Below, piece by piece: positions 14,656 to 36,113 of a DNA stretch of 64,000 nt. Position numbers and translations under genes: made by a program. The notes under the pieces were generated by a model. That model ran no database searches, was not told the origin of the DNA, and was given only the letters and a program-made list of their open reading frames with translations. The first letter of the stretch is position 1, and every line of letters begins with the position of its first letter. The DNA comes from Catellatospora methionotrophica (GTDB lineage Bacteria; Actinomycetota; Actinomycetes; Mycobacteriales; Micromonosporaceae), in contig NZ_JAAOTJ010000001.1 in the NCBI RefSeq assembly GCF_011297335.1, positions 124,001-188,000 on the forward strand, written 5' to 3'.

Positions 14656-14994
14656 ATGGGCGATCGGATGTTGCGGGGAAGCCGACTGGGGGCCGTGAGC
14701 TACGAGTCCGAGCGCAACACCGAACTCGCGCCGCGTCAGATGCGCGAGTTCCTGTGCGCTCAGGGCCACCGTTTCGAGGTGCCCTTCGCGGTCGAGGCCG
14801 AGGTGCCCGGCACCTGGGAGTGCAAGTTCGACGGGAGTGTGGCACGGCTGGTCGACGGTACCGAGCCGGAGCAGAAGAAGGTCAAGCCGCCGCGTACGCA
14901 CTGGGACATGCTCCTGGAGCGGCGCTCGATGGCCGAGCTCGACGAGATCCTCAACGAGCGGCTGGCCGACGTGCGCACCCGCCGCGGCCGCTGA
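14656..14994 (+). CDS. rbpA: RNA polymerase-binding protein RbpA
   Basis: A 112-residue protein matching RbpA along its length. The N-terminal MLRGSRLGAVSYESERNTELAPRQ, the core with CAQGHRFEVPFAVEAEVPGTWEC (two Cys), the LVDG linker and the C-terminal THWDMLLERRSMAELDEILNERL sigma-interacting helix are all present. RbpA binds RNA polymerase with principal sigma factors and stabilises the open complex. GAGGAG lies 6 bases before the ATG. It is convergent with fxsA, with a strong hairpin between them. Confidence 0.97.
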   Translation: MGDRMLRGSRLGAVSYESERNTELAPRQMREFLCAQGHRFEVPFAVEAEVPGTWECKFDGSVARLVDGTEPEQKKVKPPRTHWDMLLERRSMAELDEILNERLADVRTRRGR

Positions 14995-15046: not shown

Positions 15047-15565
15047 TCAGTCGACGATCTCGCCCTCGATGACCTCGGTCGGCGTGCTGGCCGGCCCGGT
15101 CGGGCCCGAGCCGGGCGGCTGTGACTGCTGGGGCTGGTGGTGCGGGGTGCTGACGCGGACCTTGCGCGGCCCGAACACGTTGTTGGCGGCCGAGGCCGGG
15201 ATGCGCTTCTCGGTCGCGGCACGCACCCGCCCGCGAGCGAGCGTGCGCACCGGCGGGACAAGCAGCAGCAGCCCGACGGCCGCGGTCAACAGTCCGGGGA
15301 TGATCAGCAGCAGCGCCGCGATCAGCCCGACGACCCCGTCGAGGGCCTGGTCACCGCGGGGCTGACCGGCCTGGCGCGCGTCGCGCAGCCGCCGCCACGC
15401 CGACAGGCCCTCCTTGCGCAGCAGCACCGCGCCGAGCAGCATCAGGACCACGGCCAGCAGCAGGGTCAGGCCGACGCCGAGCAGCCTGCTGACGCCCCAG
15501 AACACGGCGAACTCCACCACGCCCAGGCACAGCACGGCCAGCGGCACCCACCGCAGCTTGCGCAT
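15047..15565 (-). CDS. fxsA: FxsA-family membrane protein
   Basis: A 172-residue FxsA-type protein with hydrophobic segments at about 4-25, 28-47 and 74-105, including GVVGLIAALLLIIPGLLTAAVGLLLLVPPVR, the family hallmark. A Pro/Gln-rich cytosolic tail follows. ATG at 15565 has GGAGGTGA upstream. In E. coli FxsA suppresses phage F exclusion; in actinobacteria its place next to lnt/ppm is conserved but its role is unclear. Confidence 0.85.
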   Translation of the reverse strand: MRKLRWVPLAVLCLGVVEFAVFWGVSRLLGVGLTLLLAVVLMLLGAVLLRKEGLSAWRRLRDARQAGQPRGDQALDGVVGLIAALLLIIPGLLTAAVGLLLLVPPVRTLARGRVRAATEKRIPASAANNVFGPRKVRVSTPHHQPQQSQPPGSGPTGPASTPTEVIEGEIVD

Positions 15566-15599
15566 CCGGTCACCTCCAGCCGGTCGAGCCGGCCCGGGT

Positions 15600-16385
15600 T
15601 CACGGCCAGCGATCACTCGGCTTGAACATACGCCGCACGCGCTCGCGACGGGACTGCGCACCCCACACCGTGACCTTCCACAGCGCCTCCTTGATGATCG
15701 AGCCGCTCATCTTGGACACGCCGTGCTCGCGCTCGGCGAACGTGATCGGCACCTCCACGATCCGGAAGCCGTTGCGGTGCGTACGGTAGGTCAGCTCGAC
15801 CTGGAAGCTGTAGCCGCGCGAGGTCACCGTCTCGACGTCGATCTTGCGCAGGACGGGCAGCCGGTAGGCGCGGTAGCCGCCGGTGGCGTCCTTGACGCCC
15901 ATGCCCATCACCACACGGGTGTAGAAGTTCGCGCCGCGCGACAGGATCAGCCGCCGCACCGGCCAGTTGATGACCTTGCCGCCGCGCACCCAGCGCGAGC
16001 CGATGACCGCGTCCGCGCCGCGCAGCGCGTCCAGCAGCCGGGGCAGCTCCTCGGGGGCGTGCGAGCCGTCGGCGTCCATCTCGACGACGGCGTCGTAACC
16101 GTGCTCGTGGGCCCAGTCGAACCCGGCGATGTACGCCGCGCCCAGGCCCTGCTTGCCGGGCCGGTGCAGGACCTTGACGTGGTCGTCGGCGGCCGCCATC
16201 TCGTCGGCGATCGCGCCGGTGCCGTCCGGGCTGTTGTCGTCGGCGATCAGGATGTCGACGTCGGGCGTCGCCTGGCGCACCCGGGGCACGATCAGGCGGA
16301 CGTTCTCCGACTCGTTGTACGTCGGGATGATCACCAGGACCCGGCCCACGCCGGGATACCCGATCTCCGTCTCGTCGCCGCTCAC
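15600..16385 (-). CDS. ppm: Polyprenol monophosphomannose synthase
   Basis: A 261-residue GT2 enzyme that moves mannose from GDP-mannose to polyprenyl phosphate, the donor for lipoglycans and protein O-mannosylation. [39 protein letters not shown] (metal-binding DAD) and IGSRWVRGG match Ppm1/DPM1. GTG at 16385 is chosen because GGAGG lies 5 bases upstream; the open frame reaches back into lnt. It follows lnt by 14 bases; in mycobacteria the two activities are fused or adjacent. Confidence 0.92.
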
Positions 16386-16399
16386 CGGGACCTCCACGT

Positions 16400-18058
16400 C
16401 TATGCCGATGCTGCCTGTCCAGTGTCCTCCACCGGCGCGGGCCGGCGCCTGCGCGCCACGCCCGCCGCGACCAGCAGCGCGAGCGCCGCCAGCGTCAGCA
16501 GGTACTCCGGCCACGGCCCGAGGCTCGTCGCCGGCGTGGTGCCGGAGCCGAGGTGCAGGTCGCGCACGAGTACCGCGTCGGTGTTGAAACCAGATGCATC
16601 ATGCACATTTCCGTCGGAAGTTACAAATCCGGACACACCGACAGTCGAGGCCATCAGGCTGTCGCGGCCGTGCTCGACGGCCCGCAGCCGCACCATGGCC
16701 ATCTGCTGCATCGCCTCGGACTCGTCGAACGTGGCGTTGTTCGTCTGCACCGCGAGCAGCTGCGCCCCTGCTCGCACGGTGTCGCGCACGACGTCGTCGT
16801 AGGCGACCTCGAAGCAGATCACGTCGCCGACCTTCGCCGGGCCCAGGGTCAGCACACCGGGCGCGGTGCCCGCGACGAAGTCGGTGCGCAGCAGCTTGGC
16901 CTGGTTCGTGATCGCCTGCGCGAGCGGCTCGACGATCGGGCGCAGCGGCAGGTACTCGGCGAACGGCACCGGGTGCTGCTTGAGGTACATCTGCTCGGGC
17001 CGCGTGCCGGGCGCGAGGTCGGCGGGCCAGACGATGCCCGCGTTGCGGGACTGGCCCTGCTCCGGGCCGGACAGCACCGCGCCGACCAGGATCGGCGCGT
17101 TGATGGCGCGGGCGGCGGTGTTGATCGCGTCGGCGGCGCCCGGGTTGCGCAGCGGGTCTATGTCGGAGGCGTTCTCGGGCCATACGACCAGGTCGGGCTG
17201 CTTAACCTGCCCGGCCCGCACCTTGTCGGCCAGGGCCATGGTCGCGGCGACGTGGTTGTTGAGCACGGCCTGGCGCTGGGCGTTGAAGTCCAGGCCCAGG
17301 CGCGGCACGTTGCCCTGCACGACGGCGACCGTCACGGCGCGCCCGTCCGGGGTCGTCGTGGGCAGCACCAGTCCCACCAGCACCACCGCGAGCGCTCCGC
17401 CGGTCGCGGCCGCGGCGCGAGTCCAGGCCCGTGCGCCGACGGCCTGCCCGAGGGCGTACGCCAGCAGCCCGCCCGCCGCCGCGACGGCGAAGGTGACCAG
17501 GGGCGCGCCGCCGTACCCGGCCAGGGCCAGGGTCGGGGCGTCGGCCTGGCTGAACGCGAGCCTCCCCCACGGGAACCCGCCGAACGGGGCCCGGTCGCGC
17601 AGCGCCTCCTGCGCCACCCACAGCAGTGCGATCCCGGCCGGCCACACCCACGGCCTGTGCCGCGCGAACGGGCTGAGCCACGCCAGGGCCATGCCGAGCA
17701 GCCCCAGGTAGGTGGCCTGGAACAGGGTGAGCAGGATCCACGGGGCGTAGCCGACGTGCAGGTTCGTCCACGCCAGCAGCGGACCGAAGAACACCGCCCC
17801 GGTGACCAGGCCGAGGCCGAACCCGGCCCGCAACCTGCGCCCGCGTACCGCCACGGCCATCAGCGCGACGCCGATCGGGGCGGTCCACCACAGGCCGTAC
17901 AGCGGGAACGCGACGAGCAGCGCCAGCCCGGCGACGACCGCCAGGCCCAGCGCGACGGGCAGCCGCAGCGGGGTGTCCGCGCCGGTCGGCATACCGCCGG
18001 GCGTCTTGTCCGGTCCGCTGTCGCCGTCCGCCGGAGCGAGGGTCTGCACAGTCACCAC
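16400..18058 (-). CDS. lnt: Apolipoprotein N-acyltransferase
   Basis: A 552-residue inner-membrane enzyme that N-acylates the lipid-modified Cys of lipoproteins. Several N-terminal membrane helices (about residues 30-230) precede a nitrilase-like domain with the Glu-Lys-Cys triad: Glu in VVWPENAS, Lys in [10 protein letters not shown], Cys in [12 protein letters not shown] final helix ([17 protein letters not shown]) anchors the C-terminus. The start is GTG at 18058, or 18055 or 18049, all in the same short stretch. It is the first gene of the lnt-ppm pair. Confidence 0.9.
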
Positions 18059-18263
18059 GTCACCAATCTCTCGCCGCCGCGCGCGCTCACACGCACCCAC
18101 GCCAAGATCGGCGGCCAGGTGCCGCTGCAAGGCTACACAGCCCTGCCCGCAGCCCCTCGGCACCGTCGCGCCCACCCTGTGGGCTGCAGTTTCGGGGATA
18201 CCGCACGCATCAGCGGAACCGAAGGCGCAGCCTGCTCGAACTGCGGCGGTCCGGGATAAAGGC

Positions 18264-18536: not shown

Positions 18537-19871
18537 TCAGCCCAGCTCAGCGGCGAGCAGCGCCGCCGCGGCGTCGGGATGTTCCACCGAGAGGAGTCCC
18601 GCCGCCGCCAGAATGTAGGACACGTCGACGACCGTTCGGGCGGCTCGTGGCAGGGCCCAGCCGCCCGCGGTGTCGCCGAGGCCCGCGCCGAGTACGGCCT
18701 GCGCGACCTGGGGCGGGCTGTGCCGCAGCACGCCGCCGGAGCCGATCGCGGTCCGCACCGCGCGCAGGTCACGCCCGCCCCGGCGCGGCCCACCGGCCAC
18801 GACGGCCTCGCCGCGGGCGTGGCGGCGCAGCGCCACCGTGACCGCCAGTTCGGCCAGCCGCTGGTCGACGGCCCGTTCGGTGCCGTCGTCGGCCACGTAG
18901 CCGGGATGCTCCGCGCGGGCGGCGGCCGCCTGTTCCAGGGCCTGCGCCTCGTCCGGTGAGATGATCTTCTCCAGGGCCGCGGCGGCCACGACTCCGGGCG
19001 CGGACCAGCGCATGCCGAGATCGCCCTCGACCGTACGGGCCGCCCACAGCACCCCGGCGACCTCGTCGCGGACCCCGGCCAGCTGCTCGGCATCGGGGGT
19101 CAGCACCGAGTACACGTCCGTGGTCGCCCCGCCGACGTCGACGACGAGCAGGTCCTCGGCCGTACGCGAGGCCAGCAGCTCGACCCCGGACAGGACCGCG
19201 TCGGGGGTCGCCGCGCGCACCAGCGAGGCGAACCGCGGCCCGCGCGACAGCCGCTTGCCGCCGATGACGTGCTGCAGGAACACCTGCCGGATCGCCGCGC
19301 GGGCCGGGCCGGGGTCGAGCACCCCGATCGCGGGCAGCACGTTGTCGACCGCCACGACCGGCACACCCGCCCCCGACAGCAGCGCGGCGAGCTGCTCGCG
19401 GCAGTCGGCGTTGCCCGCCAGCACCGTCGGCACCCGCCAGCGGGCGCTCGCCAGCCGGGTCGCGTTGTGGGTGATCGTCTCGGCGTCGCCGCCGTCGGTG
19501 CCGCCGACCAGCAGCACCACGTCGGGGCGGGCGGCGCGCAGCTCGGCGAGCCCCGCGCGGTCGAGGCGGCCCGCGGCGACGTGCACGACCCGCGACCCGG
19601 CCGACAGCCCGACCCGGTGCCCGGCCTGCGCCGTCACCAGGCGCTCGTAACCGACGACGGCCAGCCGCAGCCCGCCACCGGCCGATGAGCACACCAGCAG
19701 CCCGTCCGGGGCCCGGCCCGTGGCGGCCACCGCCGCGTCGAGGCCGTGCAGGACGTCGGTGCCGACGGTCGTACGGTGCGAACCGGTCGCGACGAGTTCA
19801 CCGCTGCCCGTGTCGACCAGGGCCGCCTTGGTGAACGTCGACCCGACGTCGACACAGCACAGCAGGCTCAC
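18537..19871 (-). CDS. MutL/GlmL-family ASKHA ATPase (aminomutase reactivation type)
   Basis: A 444-residue protein of the glutamate-mutase MutL family with the actin-like ATPase signature CVDVGSTFTKAALVD at the N-terminus and VVDVGGATTDVYSV in the second lobe. MutL-type proteins accompany B12-dependent carbon-skeleton and amino mutases; related KamB/KamC proteins reactivate lysine 5,6-aminomutase. Only the MutL-like partner is seen here; no MutS-like gene is nearby. GTG at 19871 overlaps the stop of kal as GTGA; the longer open frame runs antisense through kal and is rejected. Last gene of the lysine operon. Confidence 0.8.
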   Translation of the reverse strand: MSLLCCVDVGSTFTKAALVDTGSGELVATGSHRTTVGTDVLHGLDAAVAATGRAPDGLLVCSSAGGGLRLAVVGYERLVTAQAGHRVGLSAGSRVVHVAAGRLDRAGLAELRAARPDVVLLVGGTDGGDAETITHNATRLASARWRVPTVLAGNADCREQLAALLSGAGVPVVAVDNVLPAIGVLDPGPARAAIRQVFLQHVIGGKRLSRGPRFASLVRAATPDAVLSGVELLASRTAEDLLVVDVGGATTDVYSVLTPDAEQLAGVRDEVAGVLWAARTVEGDLGMRWSAPGVVAAAALEKIISPDEAQALEQAAAARAEHPGYVADDGTERAVDQRLAELAVTVALRRHARGEAVVAGGPRRGGRDLRAVRTAIGSGGVLRHSPPQVAQAVLGAGLGDTAGGWALPRAARTVVDVSYILAAAGLLSVEHPDAAAALLAAELG

Positions 19872-20248
19872 TGGGGCGGGACCACCACGGTGCCGGTCGC
19901 CGTCACCGCGGTCACCGGCGGGTCCAGGACCTCGGCCGCCGACTCCGACCGGTCCGGGCGGCCCCGGCACACCACGCGCGCCTCGAAGTCGATCGTGCGG
20001 CTGCGGGTGCCCATCCGGGCCACCGTCGCCACGATCTCCAGCACGTCCCCGGCCCGCATCGGGGCCTTGAACTGCACGTCGGAGTACGAGGCGAACAGGC
20101 CCTCGTCGCCGTCGAGCCGGATGCACACCTCGGTCGCGACGTCACCGAACGCCGCCAGGGCGTACGCCCCGTCGACGAGGTTGCCCGCGTAGTGCGCGTG
20201 GCCGTACGGCACGTACTTCCGGTGGGTAACGGTAAATCCGACGCTCAT
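19868..20248 (-). CDS. kal: 3-aminobutyryl-CoA ammonia-lyase
   Basis: A 126-residue single hotdog-fold protein. HAHYAGNLVDGAYALAAFGD followed by VATEVCIRLDGDEGLFASYS and VQFKAPMRAGDVLE match Kal of lysine-fermenting clostridia, which removes ammonia from 3-aminobutyryl-CoA to give crotonyl-CoA. Its length fits Kal, and its place directly after kamE supports the call. It is coupled to the MutL-like gene by a GTGA overlap. Confidence 0.85.
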   Translation of the reverse strand: MSVGFTVTHRKYVPYGHAHYAGNLVDGAYALAAFGDVATEVCIRLDGDEGLFASYSDVQFKAPMRAGDVLEIVATVARMGTRSRTIDFEARVVCRGRPDRSESAAEVLDPPVTAVTATGTVVVPPQ

Positions 20249-20318
20249 GCCCGCTCCTCGCTTCGCTCGTCACCGGCATGAGTCTTCACGTGCCCCATGA
20301 TCCGCTCGCTGCGCTCGC
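20249..20318. repeat. Short AGCGAGCG-type intergenic repeats between kamE and kal
   Basis: On the minus strand this 70-base gap reads GAGCGAGCGCAGCGAGCGG and later GACGAGCGAAGCGAGGAGCG. These near-palindromic AGCGAGCG/CGAAGCGAG units are scattered between actinomycete genes. The second unit also supplies the GAGGAG site for kal. The gap is the loosest spacing in an otherwise overlapping operon. Confidence 0.5.
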
Positions 20319-21080
20319 TCATGCCGCCACTGCCTTCTTCCGGTCGGCCTTCTCGGTGATCAGCGCGTGCACCAGGTAGCTGGCGACCTCGCGCGGGGTG
20401 GTGCCGCGGCCGAAGATCCGGTCCACGCCGAGCTCGCCGGTCATCAGCTCGTCGAAGCGCGGGCCGCCGACGATCAGCAGCGGCCGCTTGTCGGCGGGCA
20501 GCGCCTCCCGGAACGCCGCCGACATCTCCCGCGTGTTGTGCAGGTGCGCGTCGCGCTGGGTGACGACCTGCGAGACGAGCACCGCGTCGGCCTTCTCCGC
20601 CTTCGCGGCCGCGACCAGTTCCGGCACGGTGATCTGCGCGCCGAGGTTGACGACCTTCAGCTCGCGGTAGTACTCCAGGCCCTTCTCGCCGGCGATGCCC
20701 TTGAGGTTGAGGATCGCGTCGATGCCGACGGTGTGCGCGTCGGTGCCGATGCACGCCCCGACCACCGACAGCTTGCGGCGCATCTTCTGCTTGACGACCG
20801 TGTTGACCTCCTTGGCGGTCAGCAGCGGGAAGTCACGCTCGACGACCACGACCTTGTCGAGCTCGACCAGGTGCCGGACGCTGCCGTAGATCACGAAGAA
20901 GGTGAAGCCGTCGCCCATCTGCTTGGCGTGCACCAGCATCGCCGGTTCCAGGCCCATCTTCGCCGCGAGCTGCAGCGCGGCCCCTTCGGCCTTCTTGTCG
21001 TGCGGCAGCGGCAGCGTGAAGCTGACCTGGGTCATGCCGTCGCCGGTGGTGTCGCCGTACGGGCGGATGACGGTCTTCAC
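20319..21080 (-). CDS. kamE: Lysine 5,6-aminomutase beta subunit
   Basis: A 253-residue cobalamin-binding subunit. The base-off B12 motif DxHxxG is DAHTVG at 114-119 with the cobalt-ligand His at 116. K127 in LNLKGIAG lies exactly 11 residues later, matching the spacing of His133 and the PLP lysine Lys144 of the clostridial enzyme. With KamD, adenosylcobalamin and PLP it moves the terminal amino group of beta-lysine to give 3,5-diaminohexanoate. GTG at 21080 overlaps the kamD stop (GTGA). Confidence 0.95.
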   Translation of the reverse strand: MKTVIRPYGDTTGDGMTQVSFTLPLPHDKKAEGAALQLAAKMGLEPAMLVHAKQMGDGFTFFVIYGSVRHLVELDKVVVVERDFPLLTAKEVNTVVKQKMRRKLSVVGACIGTDAHTVGIDAILNLKGIAGEKGLEYYRELKVVNLGAQITVPELVAAAKAEKADAVLVSQVVTQRDAHLHNTREMSAAFREALPADKRPLLIVGGPRFDELMTGELGVDRIFGRGTTPREVASYLVHALITEKADRKKAVAA

Positions 21081-22663
21081 TGCTGCTCCTTGCCGGGGGT
21101 CTCCAGGATCTCGGTGGCCGGGTTGTAGTAGCCGTCGTCGTGCGCGGCGACGCCGTCCAGGCCCTTGCCCCGGTTCGCGGGCCGTTTCATGATCCCGAAC
21201 GTGCCGTCCGCGATCGCGTTGAGGAGCGTGTCGCCCTCGATCTTTTCGAGCAGGCTGATCGCCTCGTCGAGGACCTGGTGGGCGCGGCGCTGGATGAAGC
21301 CGTCCGGGGCGGGCACGAAGTCCTCGTGCAGGTTGCCCGCCGCGCCGAGCACGTAGCGAACGTTCTGCAGGGCGATGTCGCGGTCGGACAGCCACGGCGT
21401 GACCACGGCCTCGGTCATCATGCCGACCAGCAGGATGCTCTGCCCGGTCAGCGCCCCGACCAGGTTGAAGAACCCGTCGAGCAGGTTGCCGCGGAACACG
21501 TCGCCGGTCATGTGCTTGGTGGGCGGCATCCACTTCAGCGGCGCGTCCGGGAACAGCTCCCGGGCCAGCAGCGCGTGGGCCAGTTCCAGGCGGAACGACT
21601 CCGGCAGCTCCGGGTTGATCTCGAACGCGTGCCCGAGCCCGAGCTGCCAGTCGGCGAGCCCCGCCTCGTGCGCGAAGTACTCGTTGAGCAGCTGCGACAC
21701 GGTCACCGTGTGCGCGGCCTCGACGGCGTCGGCAGTGGTGAGGTAGTTGTCCTCACCGGTGTTGATGATGATCCCGGCGCGGGCGTGGATCTGGCGGGAG
21801 AACCGCTGGTCCACGAACGTGCGGATCGGGTTGATGTCGCGGAACAGGATGCCGTACATCGAGTCGTTGAGCATCATGTCCAGCCGCTGCAGCCCGGCCA
21901 GCGTCGCGATCTCGGGCATGCACAGGCCGGACGCGTAGTTGGTCAGCCGCACGTAGCGGCCGAGCTCCCTGCTCGACTCGTCCAGGGCGGCCCGCATCAG
22001 GCGGAAGTTCTCCTGGGTGGCGTACGTGCCCGCGAAACCCTCCCGGGTCGCGCCCTCGGGCACGTAGTCGAGCAGCGACTGCCCGGTGGAGCGGATCACC
22101 GCGATGACGTCCGCGCCCGCGCGGGCCGCCGCCTGCGCCTGCGGGATGTCCTCGTAGATGTCGCCGGTCGCCACGATCAGGTAGATCCACGGCCGCTGTT
22201 TCGGGTCACCGTACCGCTTGATCATCTTGTCGCGGTCGGCCCGGTTGCGGTCGATCTGCTTGATGCCCGCGGCGACCTGACGGCGCGACGCCTTCTTCGC
22301 GGCGGTGACGGCCCTACCGGAGGGCAGGTCGAACCGCACCGAACCGGCGGCAGCCTTCTGCGCCAGCAGGGTCAGCTGCTCCCCCGTCGGCTCCAGGCCG
22401 TGCTCGGCCAGGGCGTGGAACACCGGCAGCGCCACGCCGTGGCCCAGCCCGACGTCGTTACGTACCGCGTCGACCAGGCGGTTCACCCACGGGATGCCGT
22501 CGGGGTCGGCGCCGGTCACCCCGGCCAGCCGCAGCACGGCCCGCTCCACCGACACGGTGGTGTGCGACTGCGCCATCTCCACCACGGGCCGCCCGGCCTT
22601 CGCCGCCAGCGCCCGTGCCCGGTGCACCAGCGCCGGATCGAGGCCAAGTTTATTGCTGCTCAT
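21077..22663 (-). CDS. kamD: Lysine 5,6-aminomutase alpha subunit
   Basis: A 528-residue catalytic TIM-barrel subunit of D-lysine/beta-lysine 5,6-aminomutase. Family stretches include IKQIDRNRADRDKMIKRYGD, WIYLIVATGDIYEDIPQAQ, VRLTNYASGLCMPEIA and KWMPPTKHMTGDVFRGN. The length fits clostridial KamD (about 516). ATG at 22663 is used; it overlaps the upstream amidohydrolase gene by 14 bases, so the genes are translationally coupled. The usual order kamD-kamE is kept. Confidence 0.95.
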   Translation of the reverse strand: MSSNKLGLDPALVHRARALAAKAGRPVVEMAQSHTTVSVERAVLRLAGVTGADPDGIPWVNRLVDAVRNDVGLGHGVALPVFHALAEHGLEPTGEQLTLLAQKAAAGSVRFDLPSGRAVTAAKKASRRQVAAGIKQIDRNRADRDKMIKRYGDPKQRPWIYLIVATGDIYEDIPQAQAAARAGADVIAVIRSTGQSLLDYVPEGATREGFAGTYATQENFRLMRAALDESSRELGRYVRLTNYASGLCMPEIATLAGLQRLDMMLNDSMYGILFRDINPIRTFVDQRFSRQIHARAGIIINTGEDNYLTTADAVEAAHTVTVSQLLNEYFAHEAGLADWQLGLGHAFEINPELPESFRLELAHALLARELFPDAPLKWMPPTKHMTGDVFRGNLLDGFFNLVGALTGQSILLVGMMTEAVVTPWLSDRDIALQNVRYVLGAAGNLHEDFVPAPDGFIQRRAHQVLDEAISLLEKIEGDTLLNAIADGTFGIMKRPANRGKGLDGVAAHDDGYYNPATEILETPGKEQQ

Positions 22664-24194
22664 AGATCGTTTCTCCACGCAGTACGGTACGGACACAGAC
22701 CGGCAGCTCGTCGTGCTGCTCAAGACTGGGCAGGGTGCCGGACAGGCCGGCCGGGGTACGCCACACCGCGAACGTCGCCGGGGAGCCCGGCACGAGCACG
22801 CCCTCGGCGTCTTCGTGCACGGCGCGCCAGCCGCCACGGGTGTGCGCCGCGAACGCCGACTTCGCGCTCATCCGCTGATGGGTGTTGAAGTGCTGCATCG
22901 CGGCCCGGACACTGCCCCACGGGTCCAGCGGCGTCACCGGGCTGTCCGACCCGAACGCCAGCGCCACGCCCGTGTTGTGCATCTGCCCCATCGGGTTCGA
23001 CGCCAGGCTGCGCGCCACCCCGAGCCGCTGGGCGTACATCTGGTGCTCGCCGCCCCACAGCCGGTCGAACGCGGGCTGCATCGAGGCGACGATGCCGTAG
23101 TCCACGAACGCCGCGATCAGCCGCTTGTCCATGATCTCGGCGTGCTCGACCCGGTGCCGGGCGTCGCGCAGCGCGTCGGTGCCCAGCACCTGGTCCGCCA
23201 GCTCGAATCCGGCGACCACCGTCGAGATCGCCGCGTCGCCGATGGCGTGGAAGCCGCCCTGCATGCCGTGGCGGTGGCAGTCGAGCAGGTGATCGCGCAC
23301 CTGCTCGGCGGTCACGTAGCCGTGGCCGCAGCCGCGCTCGCCGTCGAGGTAGTCCTCGCCCAGGTGCGCGGTCCGCGAGCCCAGCGCGCCGTCGGCGTAC
23401 AGGTCGCCGCCCGCGCCGACCGCGCCGAGTTCGCGGGCCTTGGCCGCGCCCATCAGCTCGCCCCAGAACCCGTAGATCTCGGGCAGGCCCTGCCCGGACA
23501 GGCGCAGCAGCTCGGTGAAGTCGTCCTCGCTGGACGTGCCGGGCCCGCCGCACTCGTGCACGGCCGCGATGCCCAGGCTCGCCGCGTGGCGCAGCATCCG
23601 CATCTGCGCGTCGCGCCGCTGCACGATCGTGATCTGCCCGAACGCGGCCGCACGGACCACGTGGTGGGCGTCGCGCCGCACCCAGCCCGACGCGTCATAG
23701 CCGGGCGCGTCGGCGGACAGGGCCAGCAGGTCCGAGGAGACCAGCGCCGAGTGGATCGACGCCTGGGACAGGTACACGCTGCGCCCGCCCGCCGCCCGGT
23801 CCAGCTCACCCGCCGTCGGCGGGGTCTGCGCCGCACCCCAGGTGCTCTCGTCGAAGCCGTGCCCGAGCACGACCGCCTCCGGTCCCAGCCCGGACGCGAA
23901 CTCGGCGACGGCCTTGAGCAGCTCGGTAGCGCTGCGCACCGCCGACAGGTCCAATCCGGCCAGGGCCAGGCCGGTGTCGGTGGCGTGCACGTGCGCGTCG
24001 ACGAACGCCGGGGTGACCAGGGCCCCGCCCAGGTCCACGCGCAGGTCGGCGGTCGGGGCGTCGGCGAGCGGCCCGAGCCAGACGATGTGCTGGCCACGGG
24101 TGAGCAGCGCGGTGGCGCCGGGGTCGGCGGGGCTGCGGACGACGGCGTTGTGCCAGAGCGTCGTACGCTCGGCCGGCAAGGCGGAGATCTGCAT
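22650..24194 (-). CDS. Amidohydrolase family 3 (YtcJ-like) protein
   Basis: A 514-residue metal-dependent hydrolase of the amidohydrolase-3/N-acyl-D-amino-acid deacylase type. VTPAFVDAHVHATD gives the HxH ligands; further candidate ligands are in GGFHAIGDAAIST and ARHRVEHAEIMD, and the catalytic Asp in ALAFGSDSPVTPLDP. The family hydrolyses amides, carbamates and related bonds. It sits between kdd and kamD, 4 bases after kdd and overlapping kamD, where lysine fermenters often carry kce. It has no resemblance to the kce (BKACE) family; its pathway role is unknown. Confidence 0.8.
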   Translation of the reverse strand: MQISALPAERTTLWHNAVVRSPADPGATALLTRGQHIVWLGPLADAPTADLRVDLGGALVTPAFVDAHVHATDTGLALAGLDLSAVRSATELLKAVAEFASGLGPEAVVLGHGFDESTWGAAQTPPTAGELDRAAGGRSVYLSQASIHSALVSSDLLALSADAPGYDASGWVRRDAHHVVRAAAFGQITIVQRRDAQMRMLRHAASLGIAAVHECGGPGTSSEDDFTELLRLSGQGLPEIYGFWGELMGAAKARELGAVGAGGDLYADGALGSRTAHLGEDYLDGERGCGHGYVTAEQVRDHLLDCHRHGMQGGFHAIGDAAISTVVAGFELADQVLGTDALRDARHRVEHAEIMDKRLIAAFVDYGIVASMQPAFDRLWGGEHQMYAQRLGVARSLASNPMGQMHNTGVALAFGSDSPVTPLDPWGSVRAAMQHFNTHQRMSAKSAFAAHTRGGWRAVHEDAEGVLVPGSPATFAVWRTPAGLSGTLPSLEQHDELPVCVRTVLRGETIYEQQ

Positions 24195-24198
24195 TACG

Positions 24199-25263
24199 TC
24201 AGTCTGCCGTGCCGGACGTGGCCCGCGAGGCCTCGTGGTGCAGACGGGACTCGAACAGCCCTCGCACCGCCGGGACCTGGCGCAGCAGATCCAGCGCGTA
24301 CGCCGCGTGGCCGGGCACGTAACCGTTGCCCACCAGCATCGTCACGTCCGCCGCCAGGCCCTCGGCACCCAGGGCCGCCGCCGCGAAGCTGGTCGCCATC
24401 GAGAAGAAGATCACGGTGCCGCCGTCGGCGGTCGACAGGATCGCCCCGTGCTCGCAGCCGGGCACGTCGACGCAGACCACGGTCACGTCCGCGGCCCGCC
24501 CGCCCAGCGCCGCGCTCACCGCGTCCGCGAGCGCCACCGGGTTGCGGGCGTCGGCGAGCGCGACGGCGTCGGCCAGGCCCGCTGCCTGTAGCGTCGCGCG
24601 CTCGCGCTCGATCGGCACCACGCCGACCGTGCGGCTCGCCCCGGCGGCCTTCGCGGCGGCCAGGGACAGCGAGCCGCTCTTGCCCGCGCCGCCGATCACG
24701 GCGACGGTCGGGTTGTCGTACTTGGCGACCACGCGCGCGGTCAGTGCGGGCGCTCCGCACACGTCCATGACCGCGAGGGCCAGCTCCGGGTCCAGGTCGG
24801 CGGGCAGCACCGCGGCGATGGAGCGGGCGAACAGGATCGCGTGGCCCTCGCAGGGGACCTGCTCGCCGCCGCCGTCCCAGCGCTTGAGGCCGTCGGTGAT
24901 CGACAGCGGGGTCAGCGTGAGCGAGACCAGGGTGGCGACCTTGTCGCCGACCTTGAGGCCGAGCGGGGAGTCCGGGCCGACCGCCTCCACGGTGCCGATC
25001 AGCATGCCACCCGAGCCGGTGACGGGGTTCTGCATCTTGCCGCGCGCCCCGATGATCTCCAGGACCTCGGCCCGGACAGCCGCCCCGTCGCCATTGTGCT
25101 TGGTGGCCAACTGGCGGAAGCTGGCCGCGTCGAGGTTGAGCCGCTCGATGGCGATACGCACCTCGTCTGCCCCGATTTCCGACGCATTGTCCAGGCGAAG
25201 TGCCGCCTGGGGCAATACCCCGCGCGGTTCCAGGACCCGGTGCAGGCCGATCGGTGACGTCAT
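24199..25263 (-). CDS. kdd: L-erythro-3,5-diaminohexanoate dehydrogenase
   Basis: A 354-residue NAD(P)-dependent dehydrogenase matching Kdd. It has a Rossmann site at about 186-200 (VAVIGGAGKSGSLSL), the N-terminal SPIGLHRVLEPRGVLPQ, and the middle NPVTGSGGMLIGTV. It oxidatively deaminates 3,5-diaminohexanoate to 3-keto-5-aminohexanoate. ATG at 25263 has GGAGAA 7 bases upstream. It leads the minus-strand operon kdd-amidohydrolase-kamD-kamE-kal-mutL, divergent from kamA. Confidence 0.93.
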   Translation of the reverse strand: MTSPIGLHRVLEPRGVLPQAALRLDNASEIGADEVRIAIERLNLDAASFRQLATKHNGDGAAVRAEVLEIIGARGKMQNPVTGSGGMLIGTVEAVGPDSPLGLKVGDKVATLVSLTLTPLSITDGLKRWDGGGEQVPCEGHAILFARSIAAVLPADLDPELALAVMDVCGAPALTARVVAKYDNPTVAVIGGAGKSGSLSLAAAKAAGASRTVGVVPIERERATLQAAGLADAVALADARNPVALADAVSAALGGRAADVTVVCVDVPGCEHGAILSTADGGTVIFFSMATSFAAAALGAEGLAADVTMLVGNGYVPGHAAYALDLLRQVPAVRGLFESRLHHEASRATSGTAD

Positions 25264-25415
25264 TGTCCGGTTCTCCTAAAAAGTGAAGTGCACCCGCGAG
25301 ATCAAAACCAAAATTGCGGTTAGATTTGAACTGTGCGGGAAATTCTACGGCAGACTAGTTGGTACGCCGAAGAACTTCCAGTATGGTCAACGGGACCGCA
25401 AAGGAGAGGCCACCG
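25264..25415. promoter_or_regulatory. Divergent promoter region kdd/kamA
   Basis: 152 bases between the two start sites, clearly AT-richer than the surroundings (for example 25275-25345). It should hold promoters for both arms of the lysine cluster. No palindromic operator was clear by eye, and no cobalamin riboswitch signature was recognised. Confidence 0.6.
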
Positions 25416-26780
25416 ATGAACGCTGGGCAACCCTACGAGTACCGCCGCGTAGAGCTGATCGAACCGGACTGGACCCGGTTCCCGGGCTGGCGCGACGTGA
25501 CCCTCGCGCAGTGGGAGTCCGCGCAGTGGCAGCGCGTCAACTGCATCAAGAACATCAAGCAGCTGCGCGCCGTGCTCGGTGACACCGTCGACGAGCGCTT
25601 CTACGCCGACCTCGAGGCCGACCAGAAGGCCCTGGCCACGATGTCGATGCTGGTCCCCCCGCAGATGATCAACACGATGGCGCGGGAGGAGCTGACCACC
25701 GAGGCGTTCTACGCCGACCCGGTGCGGCGCTACATGATCCCGGTCGCCTCCGACCGGCTCACCGAGTGGGCCAGCCACCCGCACGCCAGCCGCGACAGCC
25801 TGCACGAGCACGACATGTGGGTCGCCGAGGGGCTGACCCACCGCTACCCCACCAAGGTGCTCGCCGAGCTGCTGTCCACCTGCCCGCAGTACTGCGGCCA
25901 CTGCACCCGCATGGACCTGGTCGGCAACTCCACCCCGGCGGTCGAGAAGCTCAAGCTGACCCTCAAGCCCGTCGACCGCTACGACGCGCACATCGCCTAC
26001 CTCAAGGCCCACCCGGGCGTGCGCGACGTCGTCGTGTCCGGCGGCGACGTGGCCAACGTGCCGTGGAAGAACCTCGAGTCGTATCTGATGCGGCTGCTGG
26101 AGATCGACACCATCCGCGACATCCGGCTGGCCACCAAGGCGCTGATGGGCCTGCCCCAGCACTGGCTGCAGCCCGAGGTCGTCGAGGGCCTGGAGCGGGT
26201 CGCCCGCACCGCCCGCCGGCGCGGCGTGAACCTGGCCATCCACACCCACGTCAACCACGCCAACTCGATCACCCCGTCCGTGGCCAGGGCCGCGAAGACG
26301 GCGCTCGAGGTCGGCGTACGCGACGTGCGCAACCAGGGCGTGCTCATGCGCGGCGTCAACGCGACCTCGCCGGACCTGCTCGACCTGTGCTTCGCGCTGC
26401 AGGGCGAGGCGAACATCCTGCCGTACTACTTCTACATGTGCGACATGATCCCCAACGCCGAGCACTGGCGGGTGTCGGTCGGCGCGGCCCAGCAGCTGCA
26501 GCACGACATCATGGGCTACCTGCCCGGCTACGCCACCCCGCGCATCGTCTGCGACGTGCCGTTCGTCGGCAAGCGCTGGGTGCACATGGTCACCGAGTAC
26601 GACCGCGAGAACGGCATCTCGTACTGGACCAAGAACTACCGCACCTCGATCGAGGCCGACCAGAACGTCGACGTGCTGTCGCAGCGCTACGCGTACTACG
26701 ACCCGATCGACACCCTGCCCGAGTCGGGCCAGAAGTGGTGGCGCAAGCAGCTCGAAGAGCAGCTCACCGCCCAGGCCTGA
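25416..26780 (+). CDS. kamA: Lysine 2,3-aminomutase (divergent KamA)
   Basis: A 454-residue radical SAM, PLP-dependent aminomutase that turns L-lysine into beta-lysine. The [4Fe-4S] motif is C156-x3-C160-x2-C163 (CPQYCGHC), followed by SGGD at 208-211. The two lysine-binding Asp residues of the clostridial enzyme are matched by D343 (YMCDM) and D380 (VCDVP). The PLP region differs: where clostridial KamA has DAPGGGGK, this protein has D380-VPFVG-K386, one residue shorter. ATG at 25416 has AAGGAGAGG upstream. It provides the first step for the divergent kamDE-kdd operon. Confidence 0.9.
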   Translation: MNAGQPYEYRRVELIEPDWTRFPGWRDVTLAQWESAQWQRVNCIKNIKQLRAVLGDTVDERFYADLEADQKALATMSMLVPPQMINTMAREELTTEAFYADPVRRYMIPVASDRLTEWASHPHASRDSLHEHDMWVAEGLTHRYPTKVLAELLSTCPQYCGHCTRMDLVGNSTPAVEKLKLTLKPVDRYDAHIAYLKAHPGVRDVVVSGGDVANVPWKNLESYLMRLLEIDTIRDIRLATKALMGLPQHWLQPEVVEGLERVARTARRRGVNLAIHTHVNHANSITPSVARAAKTALEVGVRDVRNQGVLMRGVNATSPDLLDLCFALQGEANILPYYFYMCDMIPNAEHWRVSVGAAQQLQHDIMGYLPGYATPRIVCDVPFVGKRWVHMVTEYDRENGISYWTKNYRTSIEADQNVDVLSQRYAYYDPIDTLPESGQKWWRKQLEEQLTAQA

Positions 26781-35651: not shown

Positions 35652-36113
35652 CTACTCCGCCAGGTGGATGCGGGGCGCGCGCTGCTCGAACGGGGTGGAC
35701 AGCACCACGGTCGTGCGGGTGGTGACGTTCGCCGACGTACGGATCTCCTGCAGCAGGCGCTCCAGGTCGACCGGTGACGCGACGCGTACCAGCAGGATGT
35801 AGAAGTCCTCGCCCGCGACCGAGAAGCACGACTCGATCTCGGACAGGTGGGCCAGGCGGTCGGGGGCGTCGTCGGGCTGCGCCGGGTCGAACGGGCGGAT
35901 CGCCACGAACGCGGTCAGCGGCAGGCCGATCGCGTTGTAGTCGACCCGCGCGCCGTACCCGGTGATGACGCCGCGCTGCTCCAGCCTGCGTACCCGCTGG
36001 TGGACGGCGGACACGGACAGCCCGACCTTCTCGGCCAGGTCCGTGTACGACATGCGCCCGTCGGCGGTCAGGGCCGAAACGATGGCCTGGTCGGTCTCTT
36101 CCACGGCGCTCAA
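35652..36113 (-). CDS. Lrp/AsnC-family regulator
   Basis: A 153-residue feast/famine regulator. The HTH is at about 8-60 (DQAIVSALTADGRMSYTDLAEKVGLSVSAVHQRVRRLEQRGVI) and the RAM effector domain follows (YILLVRVASPVDLERLLQEIRTSANVTTRTTVVL). It ends with a normal C-terminus. The stop of the upstream dehydrogenase gene is next to its start, so the two may be co-transcribed. Confidence 0.92.
   Translation of the reverse strand: MSAVEETDQAIVSALTADGRMSYTDLAEKVGLSVSAVHQRVRRLEQRGVITGYGARVDYNAIGLPLTAFVAIRPFDPAQPDDAPDRLAHLSEIESCFSVAGEDFYILLVRVASPVDLERLLQEIRTSANVTTRTTVVLSTPFEQRAPRIHLAE

Follow-up and report, generated by a model that had tools for sequence, protein, structure and literature searches.

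Lysine fermentation in clostridia depends on the products of kamA, kamDE, kdd, kce and kal (as described in passages of PMC3149608), and a Kat variant of this pathway in Candidatus Cloacamonas acidaminovorans is covered in the same source. In Bacillus, kamA is more abundant under CO2 (PMC2654142). For actinomycetes, no count of 5,6-aminomutase was found in the passages of PMC2667541 consulted, and the titles and abstract openings of the open-access literature searched contained no actinomycete version of the pathway. The subject of this report is a set of genes for this route, which is familiar chiefly from gut anaerobes, in the soil actinomycete Catellatospora methionotrophica, of a genus classed in Micromonosporaceae, located at positions 18537-26780 of a stretch of 64,000 nucleotides (hereafter the window), which corresponds to C1:124001-188000 of an 8.39 Mb genome assembly (G000; 56 contigs, 99.94% complete). 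Judging from the genes present, their conserved residues, their order and their co-occurrence, with the reactions taken from the named protein families, this locus and an unlinked kce gene on contig 8 very probably make up a complete lysine-degradation pathway, with an amidohydrolase inside the cluster (hereafter AHy) as an unrelated neighbour. What looked like a gap in the pathway becomes an assignment open to testing, that of a single gene on contig 8.

Enzymes encoded by the cluster

Six genes are arranged on the minus strand from position 25263 downward in the order kdd, AHy, kamD, kamE, kal and glmL, and kamA is oriented in the opposite direction from about 25416, and therefore cannot belong to a single operon with the others. 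The original prediction described kamA, kamD, kamE, kdd and kal as tightly coupled, which is corrected here for the divergent kamA. The five enzyme genes it named, kamA, kamD, kamE, kdd and kal, are all present, four of them at scores above the NCBIfam equivalog cut-offs and kamA by family match and sequence alignment to 2a5h. The L-erythro-3,5-diaminohexanoate dehydrogenase gene kdd (24199..25263) gave 264.6 bits to NF052381 (cut-off 200), and kal (19868..20248), encoding 3-aminobutyryl-CoA ammonia-lyase, gave 190 bits to NF052388 (cut-off 160). The alpha and beta subunits of lysine 5,6-aminomutase are encoded by kamD (21077..22663; the longest open reading frame reaches 22837), with 699.5 bits to NF052384 (cut-off 600) and 820 bits to PF09043, and by kamE (20319..21080), with 345.3 bits to NF052385 (cut-off 280) and both OAM_dimer and B12-binding domains; the kamE searches were run with a version seven codons longer (20319-21101). 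KamE contains DAHTVG, which we take to be a cobalamin motif of the DxHxxG type.

The plus-strand gene kamA (25416..26780) encodes a divergent type of lysine 2,3-aminomutase-like radical S-adenosylmethionine (SAM) protein. Its start was set at the ATG at 25416 downstream of GGAGAGG, the longest open reading frame beginning at 25359. The best NCBIfam model was TIGR00238 (165 bits against a cut-off of 199), followed by TIGR03820 (163 against 525), and the sole sequence relative in the PDB was lysine 2,3-aminomutase 2a5h, with 146 bits over aligned residues 40-406. The CxxxCxxC motif was invariant in 160 alignment rows, as were the positions matching R134, D293, D330 and K337 of 2a5h; in the alignment of KamA with 2a5h, the Lys sits one residue off K337. 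These are presumably the cluster, lysine-binding and pyridoxal phosphate (PLP) residues of 2a5h.

Third-position G+C was 0.93-0.98 in all seven reading frames from kamA to glmL, and the order kamA, kdd, kamD, kamE, kal was kept in all of the 40 family loci examined; a chance arrangement is thereby excluded. In the comparison of locus gene content, matches covering less than 30% of the query were ignored, and a cut-off kamA in locus L118 is thus uncounted, though present.

The last gene of the run, of the glmL/mutL type (18537..19871, predicted start), matched PF13941 with 454.7 bits and TIGR01319 with 246 bits (cut-off 204), and stayed below the cut-off of NF040745 (337 against 475 bits). Of the family clusters, 37 of 40 carry it, as do 42 of the 80 named loci; it was not seen in the Kribbella and Nocardioides clusters, for which the search covered the loci, and its link with KamDE is therefore not general. 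Its product may reactivate the B12-dependent KamDE or act as its chaperone. This gene went unnamed in the original prediction, although it lies inside the segment considered there.

The Kce-type gene and its co-occurrence with Kdd

The whole-genome search with PF05853 yielded a single match, C8:116235-117044, within a gene on the minus strand of contig 8 (C8:116226-117059). The absence of kce from the locus is thus borne out, the window as a whole containing no BKACE gene, and so is the suggestion that kce might be found elsewhere by a genome search for BKACE proteins; a lack of kce in the organism is not supported in view of this gene, which tracks Kdd across the genomes described below. Among solved structures, the encoded protein was closest to Kce 2y7d (222 bits, E 5.9e-65), followed by 3no5 (147 bits, E 7.1e-42). 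In the alignment to 2y7d, the protein keeps six Kce residues, which we take to be Glu14, His46, His48, Arg226, Glu230 and Asp231, including the Zn ligands. At the first Glu, presumably the substrate-ammonium site, both the contig-8 protein and 2y7d carry Glu whereas 3no5 carries Ser. These residues did not vary across the 56 aligned rows, in which the same gene sometimes occurs twice, from two loci. In the segment L002:7247-9060, kce is followed after 29 bases by a gene that we take to be asparaginase-like (the label is unconfirmed, with no NCBIfam match), and this gene adjoins kce in eight of the nine other family kce loci (L126-L134).

The distribution of the genes was analysed in a family draw of 150 genomes, in which Kce orthologues were called at 65% identity or more, and in a class draw of 296 genomes, in which matches with E up to 1e-40 were accepted. 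Kdd was present in 141 genomes of the family draw and a Kce orthologue in 143, comprising all 141 Kdd-positive genomes and two of the nine Kdd-negative ones, both fragmented (G094, G113). Among the other seven, no BKACE was detected in G059 (82% complete), G063 (77% complete), G093, G105 and G121, and G033 and G030 gave a 38% and a marginal match, respectively. Within a single genus (g34), Kdd and Kce were both present in G034, G060, G079 and G114, and both absent from G093, G105 and G121. In the class draw, Kdd was detected in 65 genomes, a Kce orthologue in 64 and both in 62, so that the orthologue accompanied 62/65 Kdd-positive but only 2/231 Kdd-negative genomes (Fisher p 1.6e-57, without correction for phylogeny and with the gene of this genome as the query). 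Among the matches listed, Kce orthologues showed at least 53% identity and other BKACE proteins at most 38%. KamA of the divergent type was found in 68 class-draw genomes, 61 of which were also Kdd-positive. Of the 141 Kdd-positive family genomes, 17 (15 of genus g12, one of g14 and one of g15) carry the Kce orthologue at a distance of 1.6-1.7 kb from their kdd match; in the three of these loci examined (3/3), kce adjoins kamA on the same strand.

Several observations weigh against a complete pathway of this composition. The contig-8 protein reached 273.7 bits to the Kce model NF052387, below the cut-off of 382, though this was still its best model, and KamA matched radical-SAM aminomutase families while staying below every NCBIfam cut-off of the KamA type; the substrate specificity of both is therefore taken from family membership. 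The kce gene is unlinked to the kam cluster in the Catellatospora genome, and it was found within the fetched flanks (10 kb at most, some contigs ending sooner) in none of 80 named loci; with proximity to kdd seen in 17 of the Kdd-positive family genomes, an unlinked kce is the rule. The co-occurrence statistics take no account of phylogeny, and there are exceptions in both directions, namely Kdd without Kce in G277 (80% complete), G394 (68%) and G499 (100%), and Kce without Kdd in G409 (100% complete) and G483 (81%). Likewise, four Kdd-positive class genomes (G268, G366, G513, G528) lack this KamA, and seven of the 68 KamA-positive ones lack Kdd, and KamA should therefore have some other use in the latter.

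Loci with kamA, in which kdd and the remaining genes were not found, are L115, L116, L117, L235 and L242-L248. In L115, L116, L117 and L235, kamA adjoins AHy and lnt. A gene for an Lrp/AsnC-type regulator, possibly lysine-responsive, is located at 35652-36113 of the window, and a relative of 81-82% identity adjoins kamA in L115-L117. A compact kce-kal-kdd run of 48-52% identity was observed at L239:8072-10315, in one of the genomes without this KamA type (G528).

The amidohydrolase and rival explanations

As stated in the original prediction, an amidohydrolase gene occupies the interior of the cluster. AHy (22650..24194, minus strand) is an Amidohydro_3 protein with 237.7 bits to PF07969, and its DxHxH motif, H68, H70, H316, H351 and D417 were invariant in 142 rows. 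It might replace Kce by hydrolysing 5-amino-3-oxohexanoate or its lactam, a different cleavage step, and its position is in keeping with such a role, since in 37 of 40 family loci its gene separates kdd from kamD, and 68 of 80 named loci contain it. Furthermore, AHy and kce were not seen together in one family cluster: the three family loci without AHy are those with kce beside kamA, and in the 17 genomes with kce near kdd, AHy is at least 86 kb distant or on a separate contig (47-52% identity; split into two fragments in G141). The distribution of AHy, however, makes this substitution very unlikely. AHy was detected in 146/150 genomes of the family draw, 141 of which also carry a Kce orthologue, and the five that do not (G030, G033, G093, G105, G121) are without Kdd as well. 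It was also present in 105/121 genomes of the order, including 14 genomes of family f8 with no Kdd, Kce or KamA match, and 10 of the 80 named loci have kdd and kamD but no AHy (one of them, L195, stops at a contig edge). Among 20 AHy loci across the order, 14 had AHy beside lnt without kam genes, one had kamA only and five had kam genes; in all six loci examined from g12, g14 and g15, AHy stands without kam genes and is followed by lnt and rbpA. Genomes G093, G105 and G121 have neither kdd nor kce, and their AHy locus retains kamA and AHy but has none of kamD, kamE, kal and glmL. Retention of AHy where kdd and kce were lost, and beside lnt without kam genes, indicates that it is kept for a reason of its own. 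AHy is most likely an old resident neighbour of lnt-ppm-rbpA and no pathway enzyme, and its role as a Kce substitute was rejected on distribution and gene context. A gene cluster can thus miss an essential step encoded elsewhere while a bystander gene sits inside it.

If AHy is set aside, the contig-8 BKACE could still serve another pathway, such as beta-ketoadipate breakdown as a 3-oxoadipate:acetyl-CoA acetyltransferase. It scored 218 bits to NF053568 (cut-off 350), a PcaF-like thiolase is encoded near kce (L002:11623-12798; 467 bits to pcaF TIGR02430, cut-off 597), and the genome has no PF01144 CoA-transferase match. This assignment is nevertheless improbable, because the Kce model outscores NF053568 (both below the cut-off) and the BKACE gene co-occurs with Kdd and in some loci adjoins kamA. 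A close thiolase was present only in L132, of the same genus, among the nine other family kce loci (L130 has one of 41% identity), and the thiolase was therefore dropped as a pathway partner. The model scores and the family kce loci altogether disfavour a 3-oxoadipate enzyme.

A biosynthetic role of the operon was named in the original prediction as a refuting outcome; such a cluster might provide a natural product with beta-lysine, 3,5-diaminohexanoate or a 3-aminobutyryl building block. This reading fits two relatives: in G499 the genes kamA-kdd-kamD-kamE lie beside an AMP-binding protein gene, kal being absent from the locus and Kce from the genome, and in G360 kamA lies beside genes for AMP-binding proteins and a polyketide synthase. 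For Catellatospora itself it is hardly to be expected, given that Kdd is found throughout most of the family, that the cluster was present in all 40 loci examined, with lnt within reach in 33, and that kal together with kce elsewhere points to crotonyl-CoA. In the G499 locus (L238:3533-11306), the four genes share a strand, neither kce nor kal is present, and genes for AMP-binding and luciferase-like monooxygenase proteins come next; a natural-product use of a diaminohexanoate or its keto derivative is possible. In the G360 locus (L247:4176-18656), the same type of KamA is flanked by AMP-binding proteins and a polyketide synthase. Such exceptions hint at a possible reuse of these enzymes in natural-product clusters.

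As for the other neighbours, the genes beyond glmL in the window are lnt for apolipoprotein N-acyltransferase (16400..18175, minus strand; PF20154, 98 bits), a glycosyltransferase 2 gene (15600..16514, minus strand; PF00535, 110 bits) for which we assume the name ppm from gene context, fxsA (15047..15661, minus strand; PF04186, 92 bits) and rbpA (14656..14994, plus strand; PF13397, 148 bits). Between kamE and kal is a micro-open reading frame of 25 codons (20245..20322, minus strand) of SERSER type, with an ATGA overlap at each end. Scans for copies gave a single partial match, in one relative (L185, near 14187, between kamD and kamE), and the element may be a small repeat preserving translational coupling.

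Predicted route and comparison with known systems

In the predicted route, KamA would convert L-lysine to beta-lysine, KamDE, dependent on B12 and PLP and serviced by GlmL, would form 3,5-diaminohexanoate, and Kdd would oxidise this to 5-amino-3-oxohexanoate. After the Kce step, in which 5-amino-3-oxohexanoate would react with acetyl-CoA and acetoacetate would form, Kal would remove ammonia to give crotonyl-CoA, and the latter would enter beta-oxidation to acetyl-CoA, which would render the route oxidative rather than fermentative; as read from the gene set, the route to crotonyl-CoA and acetyl-CoA is probably oxidative. A cobalamin adenosyltransferase (PF01923) was found in the genome. The reported absence of CoA-transferase genes from the locus was upheld, as PF01144 had no match in the whole genome, 6 of 14 control genomes being positive in the same search, which covered this CoA-transferase family. 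The fermentative end of the pathway, through butyryl-CoA:acetoacetate CoA-transferase, is therefore not claimed. An acetoacetyl-CoA synthetase is encoded on contig 55 (C55:239199-241130; TIGR01217, 787 bits, cut-off 521), and acetoacetate could thus be activated by this enzyme instead of a transferase. Lysine 6-aminotransferase, the only other lysine route searched, gave no match above the cut-off in the genome (best 130 against 521 bits).

Catellatospora is aerobic. The original prediction found the pathway surprising in a likely aerobe; this is fair, but the pathway is not peculiar to this organism, and the notable part is the presence of Kdd in about a fifth of the class draw. The lysine aminomutase pathway of actinomycetes is broadly distributed and was undescribed in the literature searched. 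That this radical-SAM and B12-dependent route, known from strict anaerobes, serves aerobic actinomycetes widely as an oxidative lysine catabolism and is the principal route for lysine in Micromonosporaceae can be proposed only tentatively, at somewhat less than even chances. If active in air, the pathway would add radical-SAM and B12 chemistry to the nitrogen and carbon metabolism of ordinary soil actinomycetes.

Compared with the known enzymes, KamA has the CxxxCxxC motif in common with 2a5h, along with counterparts of R134, D293 and D330, at an overall score of only 146 bits, and the contig-8 protein shares with 2y7d the Glu, the Zn ligands, the Arg and the Asp, but falls below the NCBIfam cut-off for Kce. 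The Kdd and Kce steps are common to the Kat variant of Candidatus Cloacamonas acidaminovorans (PMC3149608), whereas Kal is present in Catellatospora. The closest likeness is to clostridial lysine fermentation, as given in the same source, with five enzyme genes and a Kce-type BKACE in the same predicted order of steps. Catellatospora differs from the clostridial pathway in the unlinked kce, the divergent KamA and the GlmL-type gene that closes the cluster, and in having an acetoacetyl-CoA synthetase with no PF01144 CoA-transferase found. In the further steps, crotonyl-CoA is presumably oxidised in Catellatospora, in contrast to its reduction to butyrate in clostridial fermentation.

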